Assembly: GCA_037042915.1 (NCBI GenBank)
Contig: CM073197.1
Coordinates: forward strand, 1,922,001 to 1,986,000
Length of the DNA: 64,000 nt
Reading direction: 5' to 3'
From: Auricularia sp. M13
Taxonomy: Eukaryota; Basidiomycota; Agaricomycetes; Auriculariales; Auriculariaceae
In this document: piece after piece, positions 2,285-40,412 of the stretch
Layout of the letters: each line of letters begins with the position of its first letter
Numbering within the stretch: the first letter of the stretch is position 1
Made by a program: the position numbers and the translations under genes
Notes under the pieces: generated by a model
The model's database searches: none
Told to the model about the DNA's origin: nothing
Seen by the model: the letters and a program-made list of their open reading frames with translations, nothing else

Positions 2285-4290
2285 ATGAGTGCTATTCTTC
2301 ATGTTCGACTTGTCAACAAGATGAAGGCTTTGCGCGAGATTTCGCGCCGAAGATTCTTCCAGATAATCGCCTTTGCTGTCATCATCGCTGTCCTGTTACA
2401 CCTACTCTCCGCCAATGCAAATTTGCAAGCTCGAACGACGAGACCACCGGCGCGACTCGACGTCCCATACCCATTCCAAACGTCAGGACCCATACAACCT
2501 AGCTACGAAGACCTTAGTATCGACGAAATACGCGCCATAGCATCGAAGACCAAGGGCTTCTACGCCCGTGACTACTCGCTGAATTTGGGATGGAATAATG
2601 TGCGTCGAGATGGCAATTCGTCACCGCGGTGTATCTAATCCAACGCAGATGAAATATATTCTTGAGGCTGCTATTATACAGGCAGACCTGCTTAACCGCA
2701 CGCTTGTCCTGCCGTCTTTCCTGTACGCGCGGGATTGCGAGCTTCACAAGTGAGCTACCTGTGCGCTACTGCGCACCCGATTTTAGATTAACGTAGCATA
2801 TAGCGAGGCGTGTGCTGCGTTTTTACCCATGGTTAATCGCGGGGACGCACTCCGTTCGGATGAGTGGCGTGAGTTGCCCTTGGAGGAACAAATGGCTTGG
2901 AAAGTACCTTTCGGGGTGCGCAATACCTGCTCATGCATTTAGCGTCATATTGACATCCTAGATGCAGCTCATGATTGACCTGACTCAACTGCGCAAACAT
3001 CACAGTGTGCTGCTTGTGTCTGAGTATCTTCGACTGCATGATCTGGACCCGTCGCTGGAGGCTTCGACTGGGCGGTGGCTTCGAGACGCTTACCACCAGG
3101 GACCCGACGCGCCATCTCTATTCGTTATCAAGAACACAGAGATTGATCCCACCAATATCGTTCTTGTCGATACCTTCCCTGACACGTTCAACATGCCATC
3201 GTCAAGAACACCTCTTAGCGAAAGACTGGAGGCGACAGCCGAAGATCGAATTATCCTTGATTGGATGACAGTTCGCCGCATCGTAGGTGGGAGCAAGACG
3301 GACGAGGAAGTCGAACTGGAACTCGTGGCCAGCGGATGGCAGTCCGTCTATACTTTCCATTCAATGTGTGCCAAGAATCTGCGCACAACACGTTGGTTCT
3401 GACACGCTCCTAGGGTAGCCCAGGAGCTTTTCAAAGCGCCCGTGTATCCTATCCGCCAGGCTGCGCCTCGCGCTCGGATGCGTGGCTTTTCCGAGTATTA
3501 CGCTAGCAAGGACGAGGACGTCATCCTCCTCGAGGGAGAGACGCACCTGTACCGCAAACCGGGAGGGTTGCGATTCACGTCCGTAGCGGCGCGCGACAAC
3601 TTTGCGCGGCTTGTGCTGCGCGACATGCGCTATCGCGATCAGGTTGCAGAGCTAGCCGCTGTGCTCGAGCGCAGGATGCGCGACATTGTAGGCGGGCGCA
3701 TGTTCCTCGCAGGACATATGCGCCGAGGCGATTGTGCGTGAATCACGACACGCTATGAGCACCGCTGACCTCTAGCTGTGCAGTTGCACGTTTGAAGTGG
3801 GCGATGGGATCGAGCATCGAGCAACACCTCAAAGTATTGAAGAAAAAATTCGACTCAGCGCACAGAATCTTGCGCAATTTCAACAATGGGAAGTTGACGA
3901 CGTACGTAGTTCCCGATGTTGTACTGGATACTAGTATCCGCGAGCGCGAACCGCCGTTACGAAACGACCCGTACGTAGCCGTTGTTTCTCTGAGTACTCG
4001 GGCTAAATTGTCATAGATTCTTTCTCATGACGGACGAGCGATCAGAAGAGGGAATGAAATATTTGCGGGAACATGGCGCTATACTCGTACAGGATCTCAT
4101 TCGGTTGGAGGATAGACAGCAGTTTGGATGGCCGATCATCTTTACTGATATTCTGGCCCTTGTTGAGCAGGCTCTGGCTGCGCGCAGCGACTTTTTCGTT
4201 GGGCAGGCCTTCAGCTCGGTTACCGGAACTGTCATTGAGTTACGAGCTGCTCGAGGTGCGGATCCGCAGACCGGGATGTTGGTATTATAG
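2285..4290 (+). CDS. O-fucosyltransferase-like type II membrane protein, tandem copy 1
   Basis: Predicted GDP-sugar-dependent glycosyltransferase of the O-fucosyltransferase superfamily, probably in the ER or Golgi. The N-terminus has a short basic stretch and one hydrophobic anchor (about residues 25-45), then a luminal domain. Motifs seen: LGWNN, LNRTLVLPSF, MVNRGDAL, DTFPDTF, LEGETHLYRKPG, HMRRGD and FFLMTDER. HxRRGD is the nucleotide-sugar loop of this superfamily; FLxTDER is its second conserved block. Short introns split the gene; donors such as those after LGWNN and HMRRGD join in frame. The start at 2285 is the first ATG of the open frame; an in-frame ATG at 2321 is also possible. A diverged paralogue follows at 5230. 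The acceptor protein is unknown. Confidence 0.75.
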
Positions 4291-4652
4291 TTGGGTTTGT
4301 ACAGTATCTCTAGACGCCTATGGTAGGCATGTACGTGAAGCAAATGGATTGTCGTTGACAAGGTGCATGGCTAGATTTTGGGTAACGACGGCGTACTGAG
4401 TGCCTTGCTGCAAGCAGTGCTCTGGAAGGAGCGGCGCAGCAGTTTCGGCACACCTAACGAAGACATGGGCAGAAACAGCTGGGAGACAGACAAGCAGCAG
4501 GAAGGACGACCTTCAAACGGAGCTAACATAGGGTTCTACCATCGCACAAACGTTTCCCAGAGTTCTGCATCTCGGGGAGTAAGATGAATTGTCTCGACAA
4601 TGGGGCCCACACAATCGAAGTGCCGAGTTCTGGAAAACGGCGAAACTCGAAG

Positions 4653-19871: not shown

Positions 19872-21928
19872 TCAGGCTTTTTGCCGCTCCTTTTTCGCGA
19901 GTTGTTTCCGCTTGTGCTCGAGTTTGGCATTCTGCACCAGAGGTCAGTAGAGATTAACATGCGGTAGGAACAGCTTGCCTCCTCGGTCCGCTTGCGCTCT
20001 CCGTACTTCATCTTCTCGTACAACTTGCGCTTCTTGTTGCTCATCATCATCTTGTTCATCTCCTCCTCGGTCGCCTCAGGCGCAGCTGGGCCAGCCTTGT
20101 GCGACTTCTTGCGGGCTGCCTTGCCGACCTGCTTCTCGAATGCATCAGGGTCAACGCCAGCAGCCTCTGCAGCCAGCTCTGCAGCGCGCAGCAGCGCCGG
20201 ATCTGCGGATTCGACAGCGTTGACGAGCGCATCCTCTTTCTCCGATACGTCTTCATCCATGGCCTCTTCGTCTTCTTCCTCAGACTCGGACTCGGCGGCA
20301 GCGGCAGCATCGACGTGTTGCATCTCCTCGGGGTTGTACGCGCCGCGTTCCTCGCCGAATGGGCTCAGATGCGGAGGAAGAATCTTGCCCTGGAGGTACG
20401 GCTCCTCGAGAAGGATGGTGTTCTTGTTGATGCAGTCCACGACCCACTGAGGCTGGACGTACTTGCGCGTCCGTCTCCGTGCCTTCTCCTCGGCGGTTTC
20501 GTTGGGCCGTTCGACGATGGGGCGGTCGATGATGACATGAGTAATGCTCTCGTCGCTTTCGTCGAAGGGCGAGCCACTGCCCACAGACGCCGGCCAGCCA
20601 ACACGGCCACCGAACGCGCGGATGATGAACTCGAGGATGGACCGCGGGGATTCGCGCGAGAGGAAGAATACGTAGGGCGCAAAGAGTTTCGTGTGCGTCG
20701 ACGGCGCAAGCGTGCTGATGGTCCGTAGCGTGGGTAGCTCAGCCACTTCAGACGGATTGGAGGTCGACGGGTAAGCTACGAAATCGTCTGTTGCATCCAT
20801 GTCTGTCGAGGTGGCCGGCTCGTGGGCCTTGGTGATTTCGTCGTCGGCATCGGCCTGGGAGCTTGCTGCCAGGCTCTTGATCGTGGCGCGAACATCCTTG
20901 CCCGTGATCTTCTTACCGCCGACTTCAACGGTGGCAGGCTTCGATGCTGGTACCTCAGCGGCGGCTTTCTTGGCTTCCTGAAGGCTGAATGCGCCGACGC
21001 CGGCTGCAGCATCGTCTTTGGACGCATCCATTGGCGGAGGATACGCAAGGCCTGCGTCTGCGTAAAGCTTGAAGAAGACAAACCCGAGCAACGTCTGGTA
21101 GAGCTCCAGGAACGTCAGCATGACACGGGCGTCAACGTCCGGTGGAATCTGTCCACCGTGAGCGGCATTACTCTCGTAGCTGATATCTTGTACACACCTG
21201 CTGAGAAAACTGATATGGCACAAGCCAAGTAATAGTTTGGCCCATCACCTCTGCCTGATAGTAGACTCCCTTAATGGACAAGAAGACTTTTCTCAAGGCG
21301 CGGGTGTGCATGACATAGAGCTGCCACTCGGCAGTTAAGCGAGCGCAGTTTTGTGTCAAGGACGACGGTATGCGTTCGTTAGCAGGCAAAGTCGCAAAGA
21401 GAGCCACGAGACAGAGCGCGTCATCGATGTCACGGACAGCGTCAATGAACGTCGGATAGCTATAAAGCATATGAGCGAGCACTACAAAATAGAGACTAGA
21501 ATGGATCGCACCGTTCTTTTATGATATGGTCCAGCGTGTATACCGGCTTGTTGTCCTCCAGACTCTTTGCGCTGCTCCACTCGGAACGTCCGAGAGCACG
21601 GGCAAGCTTTTTCGCAAAAGCCTTGTGCTCGCGCAGCTTTTTGAGCACAGGCTCGTGGGCGAGGTACGCGATGTCCTTTGCATAGTAGAAGGTCGTAGGC
21701 ACACTCGAGCCCTTGTTGGCCTTCTTTTTGTTGCGCGGTTCGCGAGGGAAAATGCCTAAACCCGGTGCTCAGTGCGTACAGTGAATGCCAAAAAGGCAGG
21801 CACGCACCCTTGAGAATGCATAGTCTTCGGAAGTCTGCCAGTGATATCTGCAGCTTCTTAACCGCGTGTGTCCTCGTCACGTATGCTTTCGCGGCGCCTG
21901 CCTTGCCCTTCTGCTTAATCCGGCCCAT
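19872..21928 (-). CDS. pescadillo homologue, ribosome biogenesis (NOP7)
   Basis: Nucleolar subunit of the PeBoW complex (Nop7-Erb1-Ytm1) needed for 27S pre-rRNA processing and 60S assembly. Starts [19 protein letters not shown] at 21928, followed by FRRLCILKG and [15 protein letters not shown], the N-terminal Pes domain. A BRCT domain follows ([20 protein letters not shown] to [12 protein letters not shown]), then an acidic Glu/Asp/Ser-rich segment and a Lys-rich coiled-coil tail ([20 protein letters not shown]). The last intron, 19932-19978, fits only as GC-AG (donor AG/GCAAGC) and joins KRTEE to [15 protein letters not shown]. Its start codon is 103 bp from that of SmD2 on the other strand. 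Confidence 0.95.
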
Positions 21929-22031
21929 ACTTGCAGGTTTGAATGTGGCTGAGCGGACGACGGAGAGCAGAATCGGACTTCGCCGCCCACGCGTTTTGCC
22001 TCCAACGCCAACCTAAGCCCCGCGTCAAGCA
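21929..22031. promoter_or_regulatory. divergent promoter, pescadillo / SmD2
   Basis: Only 103 bp separates the two start codons. An ACGCGT hexamer lies at 21989-21994; this is the MCB-type site bound by MBF-like factors in yeasts. Whether it is used here is unknown. Confidence 0.5.
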
Positions 22032-22625
22032 ATGAGGTTCGTCATTTCTACGCTTGGTAAACACTCATCGGCTGAGTCCCTGTCTACAGTCAGTTTGCGC
22101 ATCTCCCCAGGTCCGAACTCGATGAGGCGCAGTTGCGCCAGTTGGAAGAGCACGAGATCTCGCAGGGCCCACTCTCCGTGTTGCAGCAGGCGGTGCGCAA
22201 CCACACGCAGGTTCTCATCTCGCTGCGCAACAACAAAAAGCTGCTGGCACGCGTAAAAGCGTTCGACAGACATACCAACATGGTGCGCCCAAAGTTGCGC
22301 GTACTTTCTCTCAGTCTACTCACTTAGCATTCTCATTCAGGTTCTCGAAAACGTCAAGGAGGCAAGTCATTCGCGTTTGTCGCGACGTCACACATTAATG
22401 TGACGGTGCAGATGTGGACAGAAGTGCCCAAGGGTAAGAACAAGAAGCCCGTGAACAAAGACCGGTTCATCAGCAAGATGTTCCTGCGGTGCGTATTGAG
22501 TTACAAGGTCCCTTTGCGCGCGCTGAATTCAGTACAGCGGTGATTCTGTTGTCTTAGGCAAGTGCGGTCAACAATATAGCATCCATAATACTGACCCCAT
22601 TCCAGTTTTGCGAAACACTGCTTGA
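22032..22625 (+). CDS. small nuclear ribonucleoprotein Sm D2
   Basis: Subunit of the heptameric Sm ring on spliceosomal U snRNAs. Exons join as [18 protein letters not shown], then [37 protein letters not shown] (Sm1 motif), [33 protein letters not shown] (Sm2), GDSVVLVLRNTA. The product is of normal length, about 110 residues. The first exon has only five coding bases. Two introns, 22362-22411 (AG/GCAAGT) and 22558-22605 (AG/GCAAGT), fit only GC-AG borders, so a spliceosome core gene itself depends on non-canonical donors. Confidence 0.95.
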
Positions 22626-22789
22626 TCCGTTTATTTCTGCTCTCGACTCCGAATATGTTCATAGCTGCAACATGCTGAAATAAAGGTTGAAACTCATGTA
22701 CCATAAGCCGAACATCTGCGAACAGTTCAACAATGTGTGTGTGCAGTCTATTATAAATAGTGTACAAGACGCTGCACTAGCGAGACGAC

Positions 22790-25788
22790 TCAATCGCGCT
22801 CTGCTGCAACTTGGCGCAGCTCCGCCAGACGCGCCTTCATCTTGGGCACTTCAAGCAGCTTCGCCTCCAACGCCTGCTTCTCTTCTTGCAGGGCCAGGCG
22901 CTTCTCTGCATCGAGCTTGGTGCTGGAAGAAAGAGTTGGTGAGCTCAATCGATACCAGTCACAGATAAGGTTGACGTACAAGACGTAGCCGCCATGACCG
23001 TCATATTGCAGGATGAGGCTGTGATACTTCCACAACGATGGACGATGCGACACCGTCAGAAGCGTGATACCCAAACCTACATATCGCATGTTAGTGGTTA
23101 AAAGCCTGCGTTTGAAGATCGCTCACCGGTGGCATGCTCCATCATAACCTGCTCCAGCTCAGGCGAAACACCGCTTGTGCTTTCGTCAAGGATGGCGTAT
23201 TTCGGCGCGTGGTAATACAACCGAGCCCACGCGATGCGCTGCTTGTCGCCGCCGCTGAGGGTGGTAGCCCACTCGCGCGACACGTCCCACCCGCCCTCGC
23301 GCTCTACAATGTGATCCATCTGAACCACCGCCAGGATCTTGAGCAAATCGTAGTCAGTCACCCCACCTGAGGCATCGGTTGTGAGAGGCTTATTCGAACA
23401 CGAAGGTCGATACATACGAGACTCCATCTCCTGTTTAGAGTGTGGGTAGATGACCTGATCACGAAGTGTGCCCAGAGAGAGGTACGGTCGCTGAGGGATA
23501 AGAATGAAATCGCTCGCCGGGGGCGTGTGCACAACGCCGCCTGCGTCAAGATGAGCTTAGCTACTTTGTCTCCAGTTGTCCGGAAAATACCCGTACCATA
23601 TACAGGCCATAATCCGCCAAGGATGCGGAAGAGCGACGACTTGCCGCAGCCTGCAAAAGGGTAAGCATCCTGGTAGGAACATTTGCAGGGGCATACCGTT
23701 GGGTCCCACAATAAGCAGATGTTGCTACGCGAACGATTAGCACCACAGCAAGGTATGACCAATGTACTGACTCCAGGCTTGACATGGAAACTCAAGCTTC
23801 GAACAAGCACATCGCCGTTGGGGGTAATTATGGGCACTTCATCGAAAATGATTTCGTCCGAGATCACCAGCTTGCCGCGGTTCTTGAGAACTTCCTGATA
23901 TGAGGGACCGTGAAGTTATCAGATTCAATGAGACACTCACGCTTAGCATTCTCCTCGGACTGTGCACTGCTGACGAGTGCTTTCTCAAACTTGCCCTTCT
24001 TCACGTCTTCAATGGTATCAAAGAATTGCGAAACGCGCGCGGTATATCCGGCGAGCTCAGCAAGCTCTGCACACACGCTATCAGCCAAGGACAGTGCGTG
24101 CAAGTCCACTTTTGCCAGTACCTTTGTAAGAATACATGACCTGTTGACGACGTCAGTTGCGTCGGCTCTCATAGGCTGCAATACGCACACGACCAAAGGC
24201 ATCACTCGAGGACAAGAGTAGTCTTCGATTCGTAACAAAGCCCTCTGTACGACTCCCATGATCTCCGGCGTCGAGTCCGGGCAGCTTCGCAAACACCGGG
24301 ATGGCGCAAATGCACAAGCCAAACGCTCCCCAGAGCCATTTGATGATGCCCTCCTCGACGATACCATGCCACACGCGGATGCGGAGCACGCGATTTATGT
24401 GCTTGACGAGCGCAAAATAGTCGCGCTCAAGGAGAAGCTTCTCAGCCTGCTCGCCGCCGTAGAAGGCTACTTCCTCAGAGGCCTCGACGAGACGCGAATG
24501 CGAATGGCGTAAGGAACCTGTCAGTGCCGCTTCTTCCGCTGTGTACTTGCCAAATGGAGGAGTCATGGCGCGCACTGCGAAACTGGGTCAGAGTGAGACT
24601 ATTTTTCTCAGTATCAACCTACAGAGATTGGCAGATGCTTGAACTGCTAATGTCAAAATGACAAGTCCCTCGGCACCGACATTCTGTGAGAGTTGGTAGT
24701 TCTGCGCCGATGGTAAGACTGGAGTATCATTGAGCATATAACAGAGACGAACATAGAGCACAACGTCCAAGATGGGCTTCGCGAGATTGCTGTCCAGAGT
24801 TCAGGGCCAGCCAGAAATTGCACAAGTCCACGAACCTGTAGATTGCAGCCAATGCGCTAGAGAACCGCTGGATGTCCACAGTAATCATCCTAATATAAAC
24901 TCAGTCTTAAAACTTCACGCAGGAAGAGTGCATACTGGTCAGGGTTCTTGATGCGGTCGTCGAGATTGGCTGAGCAGTACTCGTGAGCCATCTGCAAGGT
25001 GGCCTGCTGCACGACGCACAGAGCTTGTAGTATATCTTCTGCTTCGTTTCGCCATCCTCTCCGAGGTACGCTTCGAGGGCGGCTTCCGTGAGGCGCGTGC
25101 GGAACGCGATGGCCAGCTTGTTTTGGATGTACGTCAACCAGCTATTCGTCCATGTGGCTGGGATGGCGACGAGGAGCCAACGCAGGATATTCCATAGGAA
25201 CGGCAGCATCTGCGCCCGCACGATAGAGGCCACAATCCTATTGTATCGTTTCAGTGGTCCGCTACGCCAACAAGGTCGGGTGATACGTACTTGCCGTCGA
25301 GCACTGCAACATAGAGCGAAATTGCCGTCCTGAATATGAGCAGAGCTGAGTACAGCACAAGCATTCGAGCCTCGCGCGACCGTAATCCTGGGATCACGAT
25401 TCGGAGCAGTCGACTAAGCCTCTGGTAGAACACGCTGTCGACCTGCAATAATCGCCATAGTGAGTGCTTAGAGTTCGTTCACGCTGCTGGGACGCACCGC
25501 AACGCGTGCCGGCCGGGCATTCTGGGTGTCGTCCTTCTTACTGCGCTTGCCAGAGCGTGAGGGACGGTCGGATGTCCGGGCGCGCGCTATGCCGCCCACG
25601 GTTACGGCGAGGAAGTAGCTGATGAAACTGACAGTCAAGACGCGCTGGACGCCCTTTCTGTGCTGGCCATAGAACTTGTAGAATCGCACCGCCCGTTCGC
25701 GCGACGGGCGGAGGGTGCTGAGGACCGTCATAGGCACAGGCAAGAGTATCAACACACGTGATAACGCGGCGATGACAGTGTTCTGCAA
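22790..25788 (-). CDS. peroxisomal ABC half-transporter, ABCD/PXA type
   Basis: Imports very-long-chain or long-chain acyl-CoA into peroxisomes for beta-oxidation. Layout is TMD then NBD, as in ABCD half-transporters. The N-terminus has hydrophobic and basic segments, followed by [39 protein letters not shown] and [23 protein letters not shown] motifs: Walker A GPNGCGKSS (split by an intron), [19 protein letters not shown], signature [15 protein letters not shown], Walker B YAILDEST, and the switch histidine in [14 protein letters not shown]. The C-terminus is a charged coiled coil ([20 protein letters not shown]). There are many short exons. The start at 25788 is the first ATG of the open exon; an earlier first exon cannot be excluded. 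Confidence 0.92.
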
Positions 25789-25959
25789 GCAAGTATATGC
25801 TCCCGACTCTCAAGAATTACAGATGGCTCAGAACACTGGAGTCTGTTATTTTGGCGGGTTGCTACGGATTTACAGCAAGAAATATACATCTGGGACCGGG
25901 ACGGCGACAGTGAGGTTTTGGCCTGGCGCGTGCATGCCCAGGGTTTGACCAGCGTACGG

Positions 25960-26484
25960 CTACTTCATCTGCTGTATTAACGTTATCGCATCGCCCTTGA
26001 GCAGAATGCGGCCTTTGCGTCGTCAGTGAGAATGCTCCATAGCAGAAAGATGAAACTCACCGAGCAGTCGCCGCTCCTTGGTCTTGTCCGTATAGACTTC
26101 CGTCGCATCGTCAATAACGACGTTCATGAATTCGTCGAAGCCCTTTTCAATCAAGTCAGAGATGGTCGGTTAAGGGAAAGCGGTTCAAAGCGTACGATAA
26201 TGCGCCCCTCGATGCGCATGTCCACGTTGTCGTAAAGCCAGATACTAATCGGCGTCCTCTGTAACGCGACTGTTAATACGCGATAAAGAAAGCGCTGCTA
26301 GCATAGACACACTTGTTGCAGGTTCTTGAATATGACATTCTGTAGTATCTAGTCAGTTGCTGGGTACAGGTGGTGAGCTAAATGATACTCGCAATGGGTT
26401 GGACCAGAACTTTCTAGGAACAAAGAGTGCATATATCAGTACTTTTAAATGGGAGGATAGAAGGAAGGTACCTTGGACGACATG
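25960..26484 (-). CDS. small nuclear ribonucleoprotein Sm E
   Basis: Sm-ring subunit, partner of SmF and SmG. Exons join as MSSK/KVLVQPI/NVIFKNLQQ/RTPISIWLYDNVDMRIEGRI, then GFDEFMNVVIDDATEVY, KERRLLGRILLKGDAITLIQ and QMK. The Sm1 (MRIEGRIIGFDEFMN) and Sm2 (GRILLKGD) motifs are intact and the length is about 90 residues, normal for SmE. The intron at 26340-26392 fits only as GC-AG (TT/GCGAGT). The start codon lies 106 bp from the dynein start on the other strand. Confidence 0.95.
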
Positions 26485-26590
26485 GTGGCGTAGAGTCGCG
26501 AGCGAAAGCTGAACACGGAGCCGCGGTCAACTAAACTCCGCCAAGTCTCCTCTGGTTCGTCGCAACGCGTCCAACGCGCGTACCGCCAGC
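26485..26590. promoter_or_regulatory. divergent promoter, SmE / dynein motor heavy chain
   Basis: A 106-bp gap between opposite start codons. It contains one ACGCGT (26565-26570), the same hexamer as in the other Sm-gene promoter in this window. Its small size leaves no room for a dynein tail upstream. Confidence 0.55.
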
Positions 26591-29500
26591 ATGGAGGTGC
26601 GTTCCACGCCACCGCCGTGGATTTCCACTGTAATAACACGCTCCAGCTTCTCGCTCCGAACAATTCGTCGACCGCAGCGGCGGTCACTTTCATTACATTC
26701 GTGCAAGACCTCAAGAAGAAGACCAAGACATGGGGCCCCATGATTGAGCTCTGCGCCAGCGGCGAGAAGACGCTCGAACGCTTCAGATACCAGTTTCCAG
26801 ACGACTGGCTGTACAGCGACCAGTTGCAGGGCGAATGGAGCGCTTTCAATGAGATTTTGAAGCGCAAGAACGATAGCATCCAGGAGCAGCTTGGTGCGTG
26901 TCTTCGGAGCCATTACACCCGGACCATGACTTGACTGCCCCGCAGCTGGACTGCAGCTCAAGATAGTCGCTGAGGACAAAATTGTCGAGAACAAGATCAC
27001 CGACCTGTTGAACGAGTGGGAACAGACGCGTCCCGTTCAGGGCAACATGCGCGCAGACACTGCTATGAACGCCATCAACGTCTTCGAGGGCAAGCTCAGC
27101 CGCGTGCAAGAGGAGTACGACCTTGTCTGCCGTGCCAAAGAAGCACTCGATCTTGAGCTCGTGCGCCACACGCGCCTTGAACCTGTTGTCGAGGAACTCC
27201 GCGACCTCAAGGCCGTATGGACCGCCCTCAGTGGTATCTGGAACCAAGTGGGCGAGCTTCGCGACCAGTCGTGGGCGACTGTACAACCTAGGAAGCTCAG
27301 GCAGAGCTTGGACGCCCTGCTCACAAGTACAAGGGACATGCCGACGCGTATGCGCCAATATGCTGCCTTCGAATATGTCCAGGACATGCTTCGTGGCCTG
27401 CTCAAAGCGAACACCGTTGTCAGCGAGCTGAAGAGCGATGCGCTCAAAGAGCGTCACTGGAAGCAACTCTTCAAGGTTCTACGCCTGCCGTCGCAGCTTA
27501 ACTTGACACAGTGCGTACCTCGTTTGCACACTGCGCACTATACTGATTCTCCTCACAGCTTGACGCTGGGACAAGTGTACGACCTTGACCTCAAGAAGAA
27601 CGAATCCTTGATCAAGGATGTTATCATCCAAGCCCAGGGAGAGGTAGGCGACTATATCGCATGTATCTAATTTTCCACTCACAGTACCCTAGATGGCGCT
27701 CGAAGAGTACATCAAGCAAGTCAAAGAGGTCTGGACCAACTATACTCTCGAGTTGGTCAATTACCAGAACAAATGTCGTCTTATCCGGTACGCCAAATTC
27801 TGAACCTACCATATTTGGCTCATCCGTATCTGTAGCGGGTGGGACGACCTGTTCACTAAGTGCCAGGAGAACCTTAATTCTCTTACCGCCATGAGGCTTT
27901 CGCCATACTACAAGGGTCAGCGCAGTTCGGACATGAGTCCGCAATGCTGACAATGCGTGCCCAGTGTTCGAAGAGGAGGCTAGCTCGTGGGAAGAGAAGC
28001 TCAACCGCATCCACGTTCTATTCGGTATGCGTCCTGTGAACGGGGTCTATCTCTAGTTGCTGACAGACTTGACAGATATTTGGTACGATGTTCAGCGCCA
28101 ATGGGTCTACCTTGAAGGCATTTTCTCCGGCAGCGCCGATATCAAGCATCTCCTGCCTGTTGAGTCGAAGCGCTTCGACAACATCAACGCAGAATTCCAC
28201 ACCGTCATGAAGAAGGTGTACAAGTCGCCATTCGTCATTGACGTGATGAACATTCAAGGCGTCCAGAAGAGCCTCGAGCGTCTGAAGGACATGCTTCAAA
28301 AAATCCAGAAGGCCCTCGGAGAGTACCTCGAGCGCGAGCGCTCGTCGTTCCCGCGTTTCTACTTCGTTGGTGACGAGGACTTGCTCGAGATCATTGGCAA
28401 CAGCAAGGATATTCTGCGCATCATGAAACATCTGAAGAAGATGTTCGCTGGCCTGTCGACGCTCTTGCTCGACGAAGACCTCACCCAGATCCAGGGTATG
28501 GCCTCTCGCGAAGGCGAGGAGGTCCGCTTCAGCTCGCCGATTCTCCTCAAGGAGTTTCCGAAGATCAACGACTGGTTGACCAAGCTCGAGGCGGAGATGC
28601 GGCTCAACCTCGCAATCCTCCTGACCGAGGCTGTCGCGGAGCTTCAGACTTTCTATGGCACTGGCGCACCAGTGACTCAGGCCCAGCTTTTGGCCTGGAT
28701 CGAGAAATATCCTGCCCAGCTCGTCTCCCTCGCCATTCAGGTCGTCTGGACCGCATCTGTGGAGACGGCCCTTGAAGGCTCTCAAGGCTTGGACTCTCCC
28801 TTGGAGACTGTCAAACAGGGCTTGGATCTCCTGGCCGATATCGTTTTGACTGACCTCACCGCCACCACCCGGCGCAAATGCGAGCACCTCATCACGGAGC
28901 TGGTGCACCAGCGAGATGTCATTCGCTCGCTCATCCAGCAAGAGGTCAAGGACAACCGCGCTTTCCCATGGCTCTACCAGATGCGCTTCTACCTGGACCG
29001 CAACCTCGACAACCCATTGGACCGATTGGATATCCGCGTTGCGAATGCTTCGTTCCCGTACGGCTGGGAGTACCTCGGCGTTCCCGATCGTCTTGTCCAG
29101 ACTCCCTTGACGGATCGCTGCTACCTGACGCTCACGCAGGCGCTGGACACGCAACTTGGCGGGTCGCCGTTCGGGCCCGCTGGCACCGGCAAGACCGAGT
29201 CCGTCAAGGCGCTCGGTGTGCAGCTAGGCCGTTTCGTGCTTGTTTTCTGCTGCGACGAGACGTTCGACTTCAAGGCCATGGGCCGTATCTTCGTTGGTCT
29301 GTGCCAGGTCGGCGCGTGGGGCTGCTTCGACGAGTTTAACCGACTCGAGGAGAGAATTCTATCCGCCGTCTCGCAACAAGTGCAGACCATCCAGCAGGGT
29401 CTTGCAATGCTTGTGAAGAATCCTGGCACAGAGATCGAGTTGGTAGGAAAGAACGTCAAGCTCAACAAGAACATGGGTATGTCGATACTCCCCTCTAGTC

Positions 29501-32500
29501 CTACTCAGCCATGCTCACGAGTATAGGTATCTTCATCACGACGAACCCTGGGTACTCTGGCCGTTCGACCCTCCCACCGAACCTGACGAAGCTATTCAGA
29601 CCGTGAGTACTGCACCATACGCGAGCTACGGCAACTGATATGATGCTGCAGGATGGCCATGACGCGTCCCGACCGAGAGCTCATCGCGCAGGTCATGCTG
29701 TTCTCGCAGGGCTTCCGCACTGCCGAGAGCTTAGCCTCCAAGATCGTTCCCTTCTTCAATCTGTGCGCAGAGCAGCTGTCGCCTCAGCCGCACTACGATT
29801 TCGGTCTCCGTGCCCTCAAGGCCGTACTTGCCAGCGCCGGTATCCTTAAGCGCGAGCGTTTGCAGTCCGCCCGCGACGCTGACGAGGACTCGGACAGCGT
29901 CGGACTTTCCGACGCCACGTCGGAACAGGTCATTCTCATCCAGAGTGTGACCGAGACCATCGTGCCGAAACTTGTCGCGGACGACGTGCCGCTACTTACG
30001 AGTCTCCTGGCCGACGTGTTCCCTGGAACCGACTACGTGCCTGTCGACCTCGACGCTTTGCGTGAACAGATCATCAATGTCTGCAAGGAGAAACGTCTCG
30101 TTCCCGGTGACAAGTGGATTGCAAAGATACTGCAGCTCTACCAGATCCAGAAAATCCAACATGGTCTCATGATGGTCGGCCCGTCGGGCACCGGAAAGAC
30201 GAACGCCTGGCAAGTCTTGCTCAAGGCGCTGCACCGGCTCGATGGCGTGGAGGGCGTGTCGTATGTCATCGATCCAAAGGCCATGCACAAGGATCAACTG
30301 TACGGCACCCTCGATCCAACGACGCGCGAATGGAACGATGGTCTCTTCACGCACATTCTGCGCAAGATTGTGGACGACGTTCGTGGCGAAAGTGGCAAGC
30401 GTCATTGGATCATTTTCGATGGCGATGTCGATCCGGAGTGGGTCGAGAACTTGAACAGGTTCGTCTGTCTACCACGGACTGGGCTGGATCACTAATGCGT
30501 TCCAGTGTGCTCGACGACAACAAACTGCTTACTTTGCCAAATGGCGAGCGTCTTAATCTTCCTCCCAATGTTCGCATTATGTTCGAGGTGGAGCACTTAC
30601 GCTATGCCACACTGGCGACGGTCAGCCGGTGTGGTATGATCTGGTTCAGCGAAGACGTTGTCGAGCCCCAGATGGTCTACCGCAACTACTTGGACACTTT
30701 GGCCAACCAAGCCATCGATGCGGAAGGCGACGACACCGTTATAACTCGCCGCGATGCACTCGGCGGTGACAGCTCCGAGTCTGGACCCCTTGTGACGCAG
30801 AAAGCCATTGCTTCCATTCTCGAGCCATTCTTTGCGGAGGACGGGCTAGTCTCTGCTGCGCTTGAGTACGCGGAAGGGCTTGAGCATATCATGGACTTCA
30901 CGGTCGCGCGAGCGCTCAACACACTCTTCTCGCTCATCAACAAGTCCGTTCGGAATGTCCTCGAGTACAATAACCAGCATACCGATTTCCCTCTGGCGGC
31001 AGAGCGCGTCGAACAATACGTTCAAAAGCGCATGCTCATCAGTCTCATTTGGGCTTTCTCTGGAGACGCGAAACTCGACTTGCGAGCCGAAATGGGCGAG
31101 TTCCTTCGCAAGGGTACCGCTATAGACTTGCCACCATTGCCGCCTGGCAGCTCTTTGCTCGATTACGACGTACAGGTTGCCAGCGGTGATTGGATTTCCT
31201 GGCAGACCCGCGTTCCGGTCATCGATATCGAGTCGCATGCAGTCACGGCATCCGATGTCGTCGTTCCAACCATTGACACAGTCCGGCACGAGGAGGTTCT
31301 CTACTCCTGGCTCTCCGAGCACAAACCATTGATGTTGTGTGGCCCGCCAGGCTCGGGCAAGACCATGACATTGTTCAGTGCATTGCGCAAGCTGCCTGAC
31401 ATGGAGGTCGTTGGCCTCAACTTTTCCAGCGCGACGACTCCAGAGCTGATCTTGAAGACTTTCGATCAGTACTGCGAGTATCGAAAGAGTTCAGACGGTG
31501 TCATCCTCGCCCCGGTTCAGATTGGCCGTTGGATTGTCGTCTTCTGCGACGAAATCAATCTGCCAGCAACGGACAAGTACGGCACTCAGCGTGTGATCTC
31601 GTTTCTCCGACAGCTTGTCGAAAGCGGCGGCTTCTATCGCACCTCGGACAAGTCTTGGGTCAGACTCGAGCGCATACAGTTCGTTGGCGCCTGCAACCCT
31701 CCTACAGATCCCGGGCGAGTGCCGCTCAGCCATCGCTTCCTTCGCCATGCGCCTTTGGTCATGGTCGATTATCCGGGCGAGATCTCGCTCAAGCAGATCT
31801 ACGGCACCTACAACCGCGCCCTGCTCAAAGTCGTTCCGAACCTGCGACCGTATGCGGAGCCGCTCACGGACGCGATGGTTGGATTCTACCTGGCTTCCCA
31901 GCGACGCTTCACTAGCGACATTCAGGCTCACTATGTCTACAGTCCCAGAGAGCTGACGCGCTGGGTTCGCGGCATCTACGAGGCCGTCAAGCCTCTCGAA
32001 GTTCTCTCTGTGGAGGGTCTTGTCCGCGTGTGGGCCCACGAAGCATTGCGCCTGTTCCAGGACCGATTGGTGTCGGAAGAAGAGAGAAGCTGGACTGACG
32101 AACACATCGACATGTTCGCGATGGAGCACTTCCCAACGATTAACAAGGACGAAGCTCTCAACCGCCCCATCCTCTTCTCCAACTGGACGTCGAAGCACTA
32201 CATTCCAGTGGAACGCGAAGCTCTTCGCGACTACATCAAGGCCCGTTTGCGCGTATTCCATGAAGAAGAGCTCGATGTCCAACTCGTGCTGTTCAATGAC
32301 GTGCTTGATCACGTCCTCCGCATCGACCGAGTCTTCCGGCAGATTCAGGGACATTTGCTTCTTATCGGTGTCAGCGGTGGCGGCAAGGCAGGTGACTTCC
32401 TCGTCCTTGCAATTCACGACTAAACATGATTATCAGACGACTCTGTCCCGCTTCGTTGCATGGATGAATGGCCTCAGTGTCTTCCAGATTAAGGTCTCCA

Positions 32501-35500
32501 ACAAGTACACCGGCGAGGATTTCGACGAAGATCTGCGTACAGTCTTACGCCGGGCTGGCTGCAAGGGCGAAAAGATTTGCTTCATCATGGACGAGTCGAA
32601 CGTCCTGGATTCAGGTTTCCTCGAACGCATGAACACGTTGTTGGCAAACGCGGAGGTTCCTGGTCTCTTCGAGGGCGACGAACACGCTGCACTCATGACT
32701 GCCTGTAAAGAGGGCTCCCAGAGAGATGGACTCATGCTCGATTCTCACGAGGAGTTATACAAATGGTTCACCGGACAGGTCGCCAAGAACCTCCACGTCG
32801 TGTTTACCATGAACCCTCCGGAGAATGGTCTTGCTTCGCGCGCTGCGACGTCGCCTGCACTATTCAATCGATGTGTCCTTGACTGGTTCGGAGATTGGCC
32901 AGACCAAGCTCTCTATCAGGTCGGCATGGAGTTCACCCAAACGCTGGACCTCGATCTGCCGTCTTATAATCCGCCGCTCAATTTCCCCATCGCCTACCGC
33001 CAGCTTTCGATGCCTCCAGTACACAGGACGGCAGTCATTAACGCTCTCGTCTTCGTCCATCAGTCCCTTCACGAGATCAACCGCCGCCTCAGTCGCAGGC
33101 AAGGTCGATACAACTATGTTACCCCTCGGCATTATCTCGACTTGTGAGTCTCATGCTATTTATCTCCGACCGCGCACTTACTCCTTACGACAGTTTGCAT
33201 CAGTATGTCAAGCTGTACAACGAGAAGCGCGACGAGCTCGAAGAGCAGCAGCGCCACCTACACGTTGGTCTTGACAAGCTACGCGACACGGTCACTCAGG
33301 TCGAAGAGTTGCGCAAGAGTCTTGCGATCAAGCGTCAACAACTTGAAACCAAGTCGGCTGAGGCCAACGAGAAGCTGAAGCAAATGGTCGCTGATCAGCA
33401 GGAGGCGGAACAGAAGAAAGCAGCGTCTATCGAAATCCAGGCCGCCCTCGTCGAACAAGACAAGAACATCGAGCAACGCAAGGCCGTTGTCATGGCAGAC
33501 TTGGCTGACGCAGAGCCAGCGGTTCTCGATGCTCAAGCTGCAGTCAGCAACATCAAGCGACAGCACTTACAGGAGGTGCGAGCCATGGCCAATCCGCCAG
33601 AATTGGTGAAATCGGCCATGGAGTGCGTCTGCACCGTGCTTGGCCACAAGATCGACAGCTGGAAGACCGTTCAAGGCATCATCCGTCGCGACGACTTCAT
33701 CCAGCGCATCGTCAACTTCGATACGAATAAGCAGATGACGGAGCCTCTTCGTAACTTGCTGAGGCGAGAGTTCCTTTCGCGACCACGGTTCAACTTCGAG
33801 GACGTCAACCGCGCCAGCAAAGCGTGTGGTCCTCTCGTCAAGTGGGTTCACGCTCAGGTCAAATTCTCGGACATACTTGACCGCGTCGAGCCGCTTCGCA
33901 ATGAAGTGCAGTCTCTCGAAGAACAGGCGGAGAATACGAAGAAGCAAGCCGAGACGATAATTGCCATGATCGCGGAGCTCGAGGCCAGCATTGCTCGCTA
34001 CAAGGACGAATACGCTCTGCTTATCAGCGAGACGCAATCGATCAAGGGAGAAATGGAGCGCGTCCAGAGCAAAGTCGATCGCAGCATGACTCTCCTTGGC
34101 AGCTTGTCGTCGGAGAAGGTCCGCTGGGAGTCGAGTAGTCGCACCTTCGATACGGAGATGAGCACCATTGTGGGCGACGTCCTGCTGTCTGCCGCGTTCC
34201 TCGCGTATGGTGGATTCTTCGACCAGCAGTACCGCGAGATGATGTGGCAGGAATGGGCGAGCCATATGTCCGATGCCAACATCAAGTTCAAGCCCGAGCT
34301 ATCGTTCCCCGACTATCTCTCAACCGCAGACGATCGTCTCAGCTGGCAATCCAAGTCACTTCCCGCCGACAATCTCTGCACCGAGAACGCTATCATGCTC
34401 AAGCGCTTTAGTCGCTATCCGCTTATCATCGACCCGACCGGTCAGGCCACCACCTTCCTCATGAACGAGTTCAAGGATCGAAAGATGACGGTGACGAGCT
34501 TCTTGGACGAAGCTTTCCTCAAGGTCTTGGAGAGTGCTCTCAGATTCGGCACCCCGCTTCTGATTCAAGATGTCGAACATCTTGACCCGATTCTCAACGC
34601 TGTTCTCAACAAAGAAATCCGGCGTACGGGCGGTCGTGTGCTGATTCGTCTGGGTAGTCAAGACATCGATTTTTCGCCTGCCTTTACGATGTTCCTCACC
34701 ACCAGGGACCCGTCTGTCGAGTTCTCACCCGACATCTGCAGTCGTGTGACCTTTGTCAATTTCACCATGACCAGGAGCAGCCTGCAAAGTCAATCTCTCG
34801 ACCAGGTCCTCAAGATAGAACGTCCGGACACGGAACGTAAACGAACGGACCTCATGAAGGTCCAAGGCGAATTCCGTTTACGATTGCGAACGCTCGAGAA
34901 ATTGCTACTCCAAGCTCTTAACGAATCCACTGGCAATATTCTTGACGATGACAAGGTCATTGACACTCTGGAGACCCTGAAGCGCGAGGCGGCCGAGATC
35001 ACGCGGAAAGTGGAGGAGACGGACGTTGTTATGAAGGAGGTGGAGCAAGTCACGGCCGAATATCTCACCCTGGCGCAGGCTTGCAGCGCTATATTCTTCA
35101 TCCTCGAGCAGCTCAATCTCGTCAACCATTTCTATCAGTTCTCCCTGCGCTTCTTCCTGGATATATTCGACCACGTCCTTCTTCAGAACCCACATCTGAA
35201 AGGCGTCACCGACTACCAGCAACGTCGTGACATCCTGCTGAACGATTTGCTGCTCACTGTCTATCAACGGACCTCTCGAGCACTTTTCCATCGGGATCAC
35301 GTCGTCCTCGCAGTATTGCTTGCTCAAGTCAAATTACGAGGTGTCGAAGACGTCGCTGATGAACTGGAGGCCTTACTCGAGACTGGTGGCGCCGTCGCGT
35401 CGTCATCTATCGACGGACTGCCCTCGAATTTACTCAGCCCCGACATGCGCCAACGTGTTGCGCATGCAGCTCGCAATCCCTTGTTCAAGCCTGTCATTGA

Positions 35501-37796
35501 CCACCTCAAGGAGCACGAGGCAGAATGGTCGACATTTTTAGAGTCCAGCGTGCCGGAGTCGTGCATTCCTGCGCCCTGGGATCCTAGCTCACGTAAGCTT
35601 TTTTGTCGCTGCATCGGGCTGTACTGACGTATGGTATGTATCAGCTGCTGTCTCGTCGGCTCGTTCGATGCTTCTTGTCAAGGTCTTCCGGCCAGATCGA
35701 CTGCTCGAAGCCTTGGCGCACTTTGTCGGCGTTGTCTTCCAAGCTGATATATCTGCTGAGTCTGGCCCTGATCTGTCTGCCATGGTTGCCAACGAGGTAC
35801 CACCCGCAACACCAGTGGCTCTCGTTTCCGTCATTGGCCACGATGCCAGCTACCGTGTCGAAAACCTCGTCAAGACCACTGGCTCCAAGCTCAGTTCGGT
35901 CGCCATGGGCTCTGAGGAGGGCTTCAGCCTTGCCGAACAGGCCATATCACTTGCTGCTCGACAGGGCTCTTGGGTTTTACTGAAGAATGTCCATCTTGCA
36001 CCAGCCTGGCTTGGGCAGCTGGAGAAACGCCTGCAGAACCTCAATCCGTCTCGTAACTTCCGACTGTTCCTGACGATGGAGGCCAATCCGGTTATCCCGG
36101 TCAATATTCTACGGCAGTCTCGCATCGTCGTTGAGGAGCCACCGCCAGGAATCAAGGCAAACCTGCGCGATTCACTCAAAAGCATTGCTCCTTCGCGCCT
36201 CTCCCAGGGTCCAGCCGAGAAGTCCCGCCTTTACTTCCTGCTGGCCTGGTTCCACGCTGTTGTGCAAGAACGTCTTCGTTATGTGCCTCTTGGCTGGAGC
36301 AAAACATACGACTTCAACGATTCGGACATGGCTTCTGCCTTCGAAACCATCGACGCCTGGCTGAACGCCGTAGCAAAGGGTCGCGCCAATGTCGATCCCG
36401 TCGCCATTCCTTGGGATGCTCTTCGCACACTCATTAAGCAATCGGTTTACGGCGGCCGCGTCGACAGTGACTTCGACCAGCGTGTGCTGGACTCATTCGT
36501 TGATGCACTGTTCACGCCGCACGCTTACAACAACGACTTCGAGTTGGTCCCCCAGGATGGTACCGTGAAGAAAGTCTTGGTCCCTGAAGGAACGAAGATG
36601 GACCAGTTCATGGCTTGGGTCGATCGTTTGCCTGACCGCGAACCCCCGGTCTGGCTATCGCTCCCTGCCAACGCGGAACGTGTCATCGCTGTCAAGAAGG
36701 GTGCGCTTGGGTTGTAGCATTCCCGGCTTCACAAGTTGACCACGTCTAGGTGATGAGGTGCTAAGCAAATTGCGCAAGATGAGGGCTCTGGCGGATGAGG
36801 AGGAAGGAGATACCGCAGCCTCTGGACCAAAGGGCGCGTCCTCCTCCACTCAGCCGGCTTGGATGCGTGCGCTCCAGCAGCATTGCAAGGGATGGCTCGC
36901 CGCATTACCGGAGGCACGTGACCTCTCCGATCTCGTCTATTAGTTGCACTTACAGGTCTTACAGCGCCTGAACACCCTTCCAAAGCCAGCGGCGGATAAC
37001 CAGGATCCTTTGCATCGATTCTTCGCGCGCGAGGGTAATCTAGGACGCAGGTTGTTATCGACAGTGCGAAAAGACCTCTCCGACGTCGTCAAAGTATGCG
37101 AAGGTGCTCTCAAGCAGACGAACCACTTGAGGACCCTCATGAGCGAACTCACGAAAGGTCTGTCTGATTGCTTCCGTTTCGCCGCGGGCTGACCTGTGTC
37201 TAGAAACGATTCCCAGTCACTGGCGCAAGTACAAAGTTCGCCGCGTGATGGCCGTATCGGAGTGGATCCCCAATTTTGCAAGAAGATTGACGCAACTAGA
37301 GGGCATCTCGCAGCTGCAGAATTTCTCCGGAATCGAGATCTGGCTTGGAGACTTATTTTTCCCAGAGGCATATGTCACCGCAACGCGTCAGGCAGTTGCT
37401 CATCGCATGAGCTGGTCGCTCGAAACCTTGCAACTCCGCTTGGACGTCGAGCAGACCGGTGATAATGGGGCCTTCATCGTCGAAGGTGAGTTCGGCACAG
37501 GTGTTCGATGTTACACGGTTTATAATCGTTCCTATTTAGGAGTAACACTGGAAGGAGCGACATGGTCTTCAGACCGCCTCGTTCTAAACGACGGCGACGC
37601 CGTTCGCCTTGGTGCCTCACAATTACGTTGGGTGCAGGATAACGATGCCAACGCCAGCCAGCTGAAGCGCGTGAATCTTCCCGTATATCTCAATGCGGAC
37701 CGCAGCGATGTCCTATTCACAGTGGACCTTCCCTTCGAAGGCGCTTCTTCTAGCTTGGCCGCGATGCGCGCTATTTGCCTGACTGCTGGAGCGTGA
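26591..37796 (+). CDS. dhc2: cytoplasmic dynein heavy chain, motor half only (Dhc2-like split gene)
   Basis: ATP-driven minus-end microtubule motor, about 3,400 residues in about 20 exons. It begins [20 protein letters not shown]; homology starts at the FVTFVQ block, about residue 1,150-1,200 of a full-length heavy chain, so the tail with dimerisation and intermediate-chain sites is absent. Then follow the linker ([27 protein letters not shown]), AAA1 P-loop [12 protein letters not shown] (29173) with Walker [12 protein letters not shown]2 GPSGTGKT (30178), AAA3 [10 protein letters not shown] (31341) with [11 protein letters not shown]4 GVSGGGK/TT (32367), stalk and microtubule-binding region (about 33.2-34.2 kb), AAA5, AAA6 and a C-terminal domain ending AICLTAGA. 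The frame is clean throughout. Introns 32388-32436 and 36914-36955 fit only GC-AG. The tail must come from a separate gene. Confidence 0.95.
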
Positions 37797-37928
37797 TGTT
37801 CCGAGGCGCACCTTTCGCTCACGATTTTTGCACGACTTCACGATTAGTACTGCTTTGCATATCGCAACGACTCTAGACCACATGCATGTAGATGTCTTAC
37901 AATAGGGTTCTGTTCGCTCATTGGAAAT

Positions 37929-38387
37929 TTATACCATCATTTCGTCGAACTGTCCGGTGTTGGTACCGACTGTTGCTGCTGCAAAACTGGCCAGCTGGCT
38001 CCTACAGCATCTCAAATTAAGTGTGATTGCAGACAGCATGTAGAAAACGGTATAAAGCACACCGTTTGTGATCTCGTAATCTCTCCAACAGAATGATGAG
38101 CGCATCTTGCTGGTCAATGGTCATGTCGCCTCCAGGAAGTGATTGTGCTATCTCTTTTGCTTTGGCCAGGCGATCTTTGAGCTTTCGTGTCTATGGGAAT
38201 CTAAATCCCGGGATCGCGACATGCGGTCTGAGGCGCGACTTACAGCTTGAACGAGGGCAAGCCTCTTCTGTTGACTCTGTCCCATCTCTTGTTGGCTGAG
38301 CTGAACGACATCAACGACAGCAGGAAGAATTTGCTCGAAGGCTTCCGTAGGAAGAGCGTTACTTTCTGCTGCGTTGCGGTCAGACAT
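37929..38387 (-). CDS. Mediator complex subunit 9-like protein
   Basis: Small three-exon gene of about 130 residues. Exon 1 reads MSDRNAAESNALPTEAFEQ, ILPAVVDVVQLSQQEMGQSQ and KRLALVQA; exon 2 TRKLKDRLAKAKEIAQSLPG, GDMTIDQQ and LLERLRDHKR; exon 3 ends GTNTGQFDEMMV. A hydrophobic helix, then an L-K-x-R-L-x-K-A helix, a LPGG turn and a second helix match my recollection of Med9, which sits in the Mediator middle module. The assignment is by pattern only; other small helical proteins are possible. Head-to-head with homoserine kinase, 101 bp apart. Confidence 0.55.
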
Positions 38388-38488
38388 GGGTGGCAAGCAA
38401 ACCTCAAAAGTCCGGAAACAATTATTTTGCACGGTTCTCTTCGGCGATAATCGTCACACCACGTCCGACAGTTCTGCGCCAGCGACTC

Positions 38489-39648
38489 ATGGTCCATACA
38501 TTCAAGATACGCGTTCCTGCGACCAGTGCGAATATCGGTCCTGGGTTTGACGTCGTCGGCCTCTCGCTTTCGCTTCACCTGACTCTCGATGTCTCTACCG
38601 CGGACAGCGATCACTACACCCCACCAAAAATAACATATTCGGGCGAAGGCGCAGACGAGGTTCCCCTCGACCCGTACAAGAATCTTACGACGCGTGTCGC
38701 ACTCTATGTTCTGCGATGCCATGGCAAAAACAGGTTTCCCAACAACTTGGTGATCCACGCTCACAACGAAATTCCATTCGGTCGTGGCCTTGGCTCCTCG
38801 GGGGCCGCAGTCGTTGCTGGTGTGTTACTTGGGAACGAACTTGGCAACCTTCGCCTGGCGAACGCGCGCATGCTCGACTTCGCGCTCATGGTCGAGCGTC
38901 ACCCGGATAATGTAACAGCTGCTCTCATCGGTGGCTTTGTTGGGTCGTATCTCCGCGAGCTAGACCATGCTGCGACTGAAGCAGCATCTGTACCTCTGTC
39001 TGAAGTCCTCCCTGAATATCCCGAAGACGCCGGCGAGGACTGGGGCATGAACCCCCCTATGCCGCCGCAAGGCATCGGCCATTGGGTACGCTTTCCGTGG
39101 AACCCGGTGATCAAGGCCATTGCCATTATACCTCGCTTTGAATTGAGCACCGCTACGGCTCGCAGTGTGTTGCCGCAAGAGTATTCGCGAAAAGACCTGG
39201 TTCGAGCACACGCCATTGCATTGCGTATGAAGGCTAAATATCCGTGCAGATTTTCAATCTGCAACGCCTTGCAGTGCTCACGACGGCGCTGGGGCACTCG
39301 CCGCCCGATCCTGACCTCATATACGAGGCCATGAAGGATCGGGTCCATCAACCATACCGCAAACATTTGGTAGGCACCTTATTCTGTTATCTAGAGAAAG
39401 CGCTCAAATTTTTGACCAAGATACCCGGGCTTCCGGACGTGCTTTCATCTGTAACCCCTTCCACTCATCCCGGCCTTCTGGGAATCTGCCTGTCCGGCGC
39501 AGGTCCCACAATTTTAGCGCTTGCCGTAGATGGATTCGAGCACATAGCTCAGTCAGCAGAGGCAGTATTCAAAACTTACTCGGTGGACGTCGATTGGAAG
39601 GTCCTTGAAGTATCCAGCGCATGCGAGGTATTGCGGCAGGCTCAATGA
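38489..39648 (+). CDS. THR1: homoserine kinase
   Basis: Phosphorylates L-homoserine for threonine synthesis. GHMP-kinase family: VHTFKIRVPATSANIGPGFD at the N-terminus, ATP loop EIPFGRGLGSSGAAVVAG, VERHPDNVTAALIGGFVGS, then IFNLQRLAVLTTALG and C-terminal LGICLSGAGPTILALA. Two introns (about 39199-39246 and 39368-39420) join KDL to IFNLQ and YRKHL to IPGLPDV in frame. Length is about 350 residues, normal for fungal enzymes. The start is the ATG at 38489, just before the conserved N-terminus. Confidence 0.94.
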
Positions 39649-40412
39649 TCGTCCCTTCGACTTGTCTCTTGGTTGCTTTATCCTATATACATTCCCAGCT
39701 CGCGCTCGTTCTCACATCGCCTGTCGTATTGTCGGAGACATTTCAGGTATACTGTATCGGTCCAGCTACTTGTGGGGGCATAGTAGATACCGAAAGCCTG
39801 CTCGTGAATCGTTATCCTGAGCTTTGATATTGTAGCATGCTGCGGAGAGAGATCATGCGCGCTGCTGGGGCCGAAGCGAATAGAAGCCCGCGCAAGCGAT
39901 CGTCTCATGCTCTCAGTGCTGCTGAATTTTACGTGCGACCGCCTTCACGCGCCTAACACATTCACCGTGCTCGACCTCATTGGTACGACAGCCTGAGAGA
40001 GCTCGCCTCGATTTCGGTCGTTGCTCGGATATGTCCCCTTTGGGCCCTCCGAGGCCAACATGAGGCTAGCACGTGCCTTTCCCCGTATTATGCGTACCTT
40101 GGGATTGCACTAATAGCAGCGTCGCGTTCCGTGACCTTGACGATTCAAAAATTAGCGTAATTGTCTCCGTTGACGTCGGTTGCGCCTCATCCAACCGTTG
40201 GCCTGACGCTGCGTAGGGCAACGCCCACGAATAATGGGGGTGCGTAGGTCCGTCGCATGGTCGGACCAGTATGGCGAGATCCTCGCTGGATGCCGCGGAA
40301 CCGAATAGCGTCCAATGTGGCATGCGACTTATAAATGCCACCGCCCATCCTCGACGGGCGGATTATCCAGTGTTTTTAAACGTTCGAGAGGCGATCCACA
40401 CTGTCACCAGAC
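39649..40412. other. intergenic 764 bp upstream of the HAD gene
   Basis: No coding sequence or repeat recognised. It must carry the homoserine kinase 3' UTR and the promoter of the gene at 40413, including the TATA-like box at about 40329. Confidence 0.5.
40329..40336 (+). promoter_or_regulatory. TATA-like box of the HAD gene
   Basis: TTATAAAT lies about 80 bp before the ATG at 40413, at a plausible distance for a short 5' UTR. Based on sequence match only. Confidence 0.4.

Follow-up and report, generated by a model that had tools for sequence, protein, structure and literature searches.

Two-gene dynein heavy chains have been described in several groups of fungi, and the closest described system is that of the Agaricomycetes and Dacrymycetes, for which Brunsch et al. 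2015 (PMC4540427) report a heavy chain divided between the genes dhc1 and dhc2. In their account of Schizophyllum commune, dhc1 encodes 1,180 residues and dhc2 encodes 3,450, the two genes lie 413 kb apart and run in opposite directions, and no other heavy-chain sequence is reported; published pairs share a scaffold, at distances of up to 500 kb. Table 3 of that paper gives both junction ends for 11 Agaricomycetes, including Auricularia delicata, and places the junction at the same point in Schizophyllum and other Agaricomycetes. The same paper describes two further kinds of split, one in Ustilago maydis, where the break between Dyn1 and Dyn2 falls inside AAA4, and one in Wallemia, where it falls between AAA1 and AAA2. 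The Ustilago case is also mentioned in an eLife review (PMC7373426), and a later review treats two-part dynein as known (PMC8950801).

The window analysed here is a 64,000-nucleotide stretch of the Auricularia sp. M13 genome (C5:1922001-1986000, in an assembly of 52.1 Mb on 14 contigs), and its plus strand carries a dynein-1 motor gene at 26591-37796. The predicted spliced model has 18 exons and yields 3,456 aa with a single terminal stop, comprising the last part of the tail, the linker, the AAA ring, the stalk and the C-terminal domain of cytoplasmic dynein-1. The features of the gene and its upstream neighbour, in window coordinates, are these:

26591..37796, plus strand: dhc2-type dynein heavy chain gene (spliced model, domain scan and DYNC1H1 alignment)
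26591..26596, plus strand: predicted two-codon first coding exon, ATGGAG, holding the only ATG in 26484-26700
26597..26646, plus strand: predicted first intron of 50 nt, GTGCGT...CTCCAG
32388..32436, plus strand: predicted GC-AG intron, removal of which restores the Walker A motif of AAA4, GVSGGGKT (from the frame)
36914..36955, plus strand: predicted GC-AG intron near the C-terminus (from the frame)
25901..26483, minus strand: SmE-like gene, upstream neighbour, 3′ boundary approximate (frame translations; LSM domain)
26484..26590, no strand: interval of 107 bp between divergent start codons (both ATG positions)

A Pfam scan of the motor gene, which took in 7 of its 18 exons (3, 8 and 10-14), finds in order DHC_N2, AAA_6, AAA_7, AAA_8, the MT stalk, AAA_9, Dynein_heavy and AAA_lid_11, the DHC_N2 match corresponding to the linker. 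Together with alignment of the C-terminus, these matches place everything from AAA1 to the C-terminus in one gene, and intact Walker A motifs lie at four positions of the protein (residues 746, 1048, 1420 and 1762). The initial annotation, made from the sequence alone, had placed a motor gene at these coordinates, as the model and its domain order bear out, and had described it as lying in one clean frame; this is correct in that a single terminal stop remains after splicing, but 17 introns have to be removed to reach it, two of them GC-AG. Only with GC-AG boundaries is the dynein frame kept at 32388-32436 and 36914-36955, and the fourth Walker A motif is intact only if the first of these is spliced out. 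No tandem repeats were found in window positions 20000-40000.

Relatives of the gene were also sought. The protein encoded by exon 8 had no relative in a scan of viral contigs, and a scan of genome contigs turned up 16 dynein loci (best identity 55%) in GTDB records that bear the label of bacterial MAGs and are probably eukaryotic contigs wrongly binned.

By sequence comparison the window gene is closest to cytoplasmic dynein-1, and not to dynein-2 or the axonemal heavy chains. The first 320 residues of the motor protein score 353 bits against human DYNC1H1 and 60 against the best axonemal chain, and the last 383 score 297 bits against DYNC1H1 and 52 against dynein-2. These segments align to DYNC1H1 residues 1159-1475 and 4254-4625 respectively, in agreement with the original estimate that homology starts about 1,150-1,200 residues into a normal heavy chain. 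Most of the tail is accordingly absent from the motor gene, as had been stated, but to say that it has no tail is slightly too strong, because the alignment to the human motor construct 8dyu starts at residue 165 of the motor protein, leaving ~160 residues ahead of it.

The missing part is encoded elsewhere. Searches of the genome with the Pfam models PF08385 (DHC_N1), PF08393 (DHC_N2) and PF12777 (stalk), at E <= 0.001 and with six frames read exon by exon, gave three exon matches to DHC_N1, all in one gene (C5:2287230-2289094, minus strand), for which the following model was predicted:

C5:2285811-2289980, minus strand: dhc1 tail gene, outside the window, 14-exon predicted model of ~1,140 aa

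Some introns of this model are uncertain and its length in residues is approximate. The tail protein aligns to DYNC1H1 29-1159, its last 260 residues to 885-1159, so that the two halves are complementary and meet at a single human residue, 1159. The tail gene carries its own stop codon and the motor gene its own start; they lie 326,014 bp apart on one contig in convergent orientation. A separate tail gene of this kind is what the initial annotation had suggested searching for, and its ending where the motor begins supports the proposal of a split cytoplasmic dynein. Two outcomes had been named that would overturn the proposal. One was a full-length heavy chain elsewhere: matches to DHC_N2 and the stalk are confined to the window gene, and with the three models matching only dhc1 and dhc2 no second or full-length heavy chain was found in the 52.1 Mb; a partial duplicate of a full-length chain is rejected on the same searches. 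The other was a spliced transcript joining tail exons to the motor gene, against which speak the tail's own stop codon and its distant, convergent position. Dynactin is also matched in the genome, as is a light intermediate chain (best E 1e-4).

Tail exons immediately upstream of dhc2 are likewise ruled out, since that place is occupied by an LSM-domain gene. The SmE-like protein, assembled manually from the translated frames, matches the Pfam LSM model with E 3.9e-12, and its ATG begins at 26483 on the strand opposite dhc2. The presence of SmE there, and the conclusion that the tail cannot adjoin the motor gene, had both been recognised from the start; the gap had been given as 106 bp and is actually 107 bases (26484-26590), which leaves the tail no space directly upstream. 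This interval is likely to be a promoter region shared by the two genes.

Comparison with the ends printed in Table 3 of Brunsch et al. (PMC4540427) shows where the break lies. The Dhc1 end found here, ...SIEGLVGAPRRF, is identical to that of A. delicata at 19 of 19 positions and to those of nine other species at 15-18 of 19; it matches the C. cinerea entry, apparently a model built in another way, at 0 of 19. The Dhc2 start is identical at 21 of 22 positions to those of A. delicata, D. squalens and Ganoderma, which tie. As both ends match the tabulated species, the split point is by sequence that of Schizophyllum and is not new. The statement in the initial annotation on dhc1 and dhc2 in Schizophyllum and on a different split in Ustilago is confirmed by that paper, its hint that the break here might differ from that in Schizophyllum is contradicted by Table 3, and the novelty it implied does not stand, the split having been published for Agaricomycetes and Dacrymycetes. 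The conserved junction ends also argue against misassembly. A Ustilago-type split is ruled out by the Pfam matches, AAA4 lying in one gene with its neighbours, as is a Wallemia-type split, AAA_6 and the later AAA domains being in one gene.

Both halves carry short added ends at the break, Dhc1 finishing ...LVGAPRRF and Dhc2 beginning MELLAPNN.... In Table 3 of PMC4540427, 10 of the 11 Dhc1 ends finish in RRF, and the added ends are missing from five unsplit or differently split fungal sequences. The Dhc2 starts of F. mediterranea and C. cinerea are given in the same paper as MEVR. Exon 2 of dhc2 begins at 26647, and if the first intron were left in place here the protein would start MEVRS; the agreement between the two suggests, without proving it, that these species share the two-codon first exon and that the intron was retained in their published models. 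An AlphaFold model of exon 2 alone (mean pLDDT 56.2, low confidence) has residues 1-7 as coil and a helix from residue 8, which would agree, weakly, with a break at the start of a helix.

We consider it very likely that the window gene supplies the dhc2 half of the two-gene dynein-1 heavy chain of Agaricomycetes and that the Dhc1 and Dhc2 polypeptides repack into one chain. The two genes complement one another and have separate starts and stops; they would be transcribed and translated independently. Dhc1, predicted to be the dimerising tail, would pack against Dhc2 at the junction between tail helices (human residue ~1159) to form one heavy chain, with contacts between the helical bundles of the tail taking the place of the absent peptide bond, and with the Dhc1 part binding the accessory chains. 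For the Agaricomycetes, the case for such reassembly rests on a potential co-localisation of the two proteins in S. commune, which its authors term preliminary; for Ustilago, Brunsch et al. cite Straube et al. 2001 for the two halves sharing one complex (PMC4540427). These authors see no sequence at the break that is dedicated to an interaction, and raise an unknown interaction as a possibility. A docking role for the added ends is possible because both are conserved in the published species, and they might be an evolved pair that rejoins the two polypeptides, its motor side encoded by way of the conserved two-codon first exon, an idea suggested by the junction sequences that we nevertheless regard as rather doubtful. 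Among the matches listed in the literature on split dynein, none reports a test of docking at the break.

One set of observations counts against joint action of the two chains as the whole explanation. Strains of S. commune deleted for dhc2 are unable to accept nuclei, and mating is normal in the dhc1 deletion strain (PMC4540427), a difference that is unexpected if the two proteins act only together. Dhc2 might therefore also act without Dhc1, for example in nuclear migration, with some other protein replacing the tail, and Brunsch et al. do propose another complex; we judge this quite unlikely as a reading of the present locus, since the dhc1 side of the S. commune evidence comes from a single deletion strain and the search of the Auricularia genome found no second DHC_N1 gene, although a replacement need not be homologous. 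It is very improbable that the halves are joined covalently, by trans-splicing of transcripts or by protein splicing, to give a full-length chain. Such joining would suit halves that meet at one DYNC1H1 residue and have short added ends, but the junction is marked by a stop codon in one gene and a start codon in the other, the published species conserve the added ends as coding sequence, and the domain scans (7 of the 18 exons in the case of the motor gene) show dynein domains only. There is next to no chance that a normal full-length chain exists elsewhere and that dhc2 is a truncated duplicate or assembly artefact, given the single tail gene, the single matches to the linker and to the stalk domain, the intact reading frame with its four Walker A motifs, and the conservation of both junction ends with published species.

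The reading of dhc2 as one half of a two-gene heavy chain also invites a comparison of its surroundings, since according to Brunsch et al. all dhc2 homologues are linked to the mating-type locus matA (PMC4540427). Neither of two homeodomain models (with one and five matches across the genome) nor Peptidase_M3 (with 20) has a match on C5. A head-to-head gene pair lies instead on contig C6 at ~2.7684-2.7727 Mb (about 2768422-2772668), in which the minus-strand gene has a homeodomain match of E 1.2e-4 and the plus-strand gene one of E 0.0044, below the curated cut-off. A regular-expression search for the canonical homeodomain motif at eight C6, C9 and C10 loci did not find it in the C6 pair and gave one chance-looking match elsewhere. 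These weak matches make the C6 pair a probable mating-type A HD pair. An M3 peptidase, which we take to be the mitochondrial intermediate peptidase, is encoded on C6 at about 2872.5-2874.9 kb, ~100 kb from the HD-like pair. In two strains of A. heimuer, the reported distances between mip and MAT-A are 59.5 and 67.6 kb (PMC7151073). Two other M3 peptidase genes, C9:270047-271599 and C12:888471-890023, score almost equally and share an exon pattern, and are perhaps a recent duplicate. With dhc2 at 1.95 of 4.41 Mb on C5 and the HD-like pair at 2.77 of 4.34 Mb on C6, the distance between them would probably be ~3.5 Mb or more even with C5 and C6 placed end to end. The published linkage is thus not seen here; linkage to matA is a reported correlate of the split and does not belong to its definition.

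Set beside the known systems, the Auricularia locus is one more instance of a published phenomenon. It shares its split point with the Agaricomycete and Dacrymycete Dhc1/Dhc2 pairs, and resembles them in its near-identical ends, in that no further heavy chain was found, in a motor of similar size (3,456 aa, against 3,450 in S. commune; the tail model has ~1,140 residues against 1,180) and in the placement of both genes on one contig within 500 kb; it differs from all the species of Brunsch et al. in the probable position of matA on another contig. Ustilago Dyn1/Dyn2 likewise devotes two genes to one cytoplasmic dynein heavy chain, but is broken inside AAA4, whereas here AAA_8 (AAA4), the stalk and the later AAA domains share a gene with AAA1-3. 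Human DYNC1H1 is homologous across 29-1159 (dhc1) and across 1159-1475 and 4254-4625 (dhc2, for which the two ends were searched), but is one polypeptide where Auricularia has two, with short added ends at the break. The split is thereby confirmed in one more genome, with halves that are complementary at a single human residue, and how the two chains are held together is a mechanical question for the whole group and not one specific to this window.
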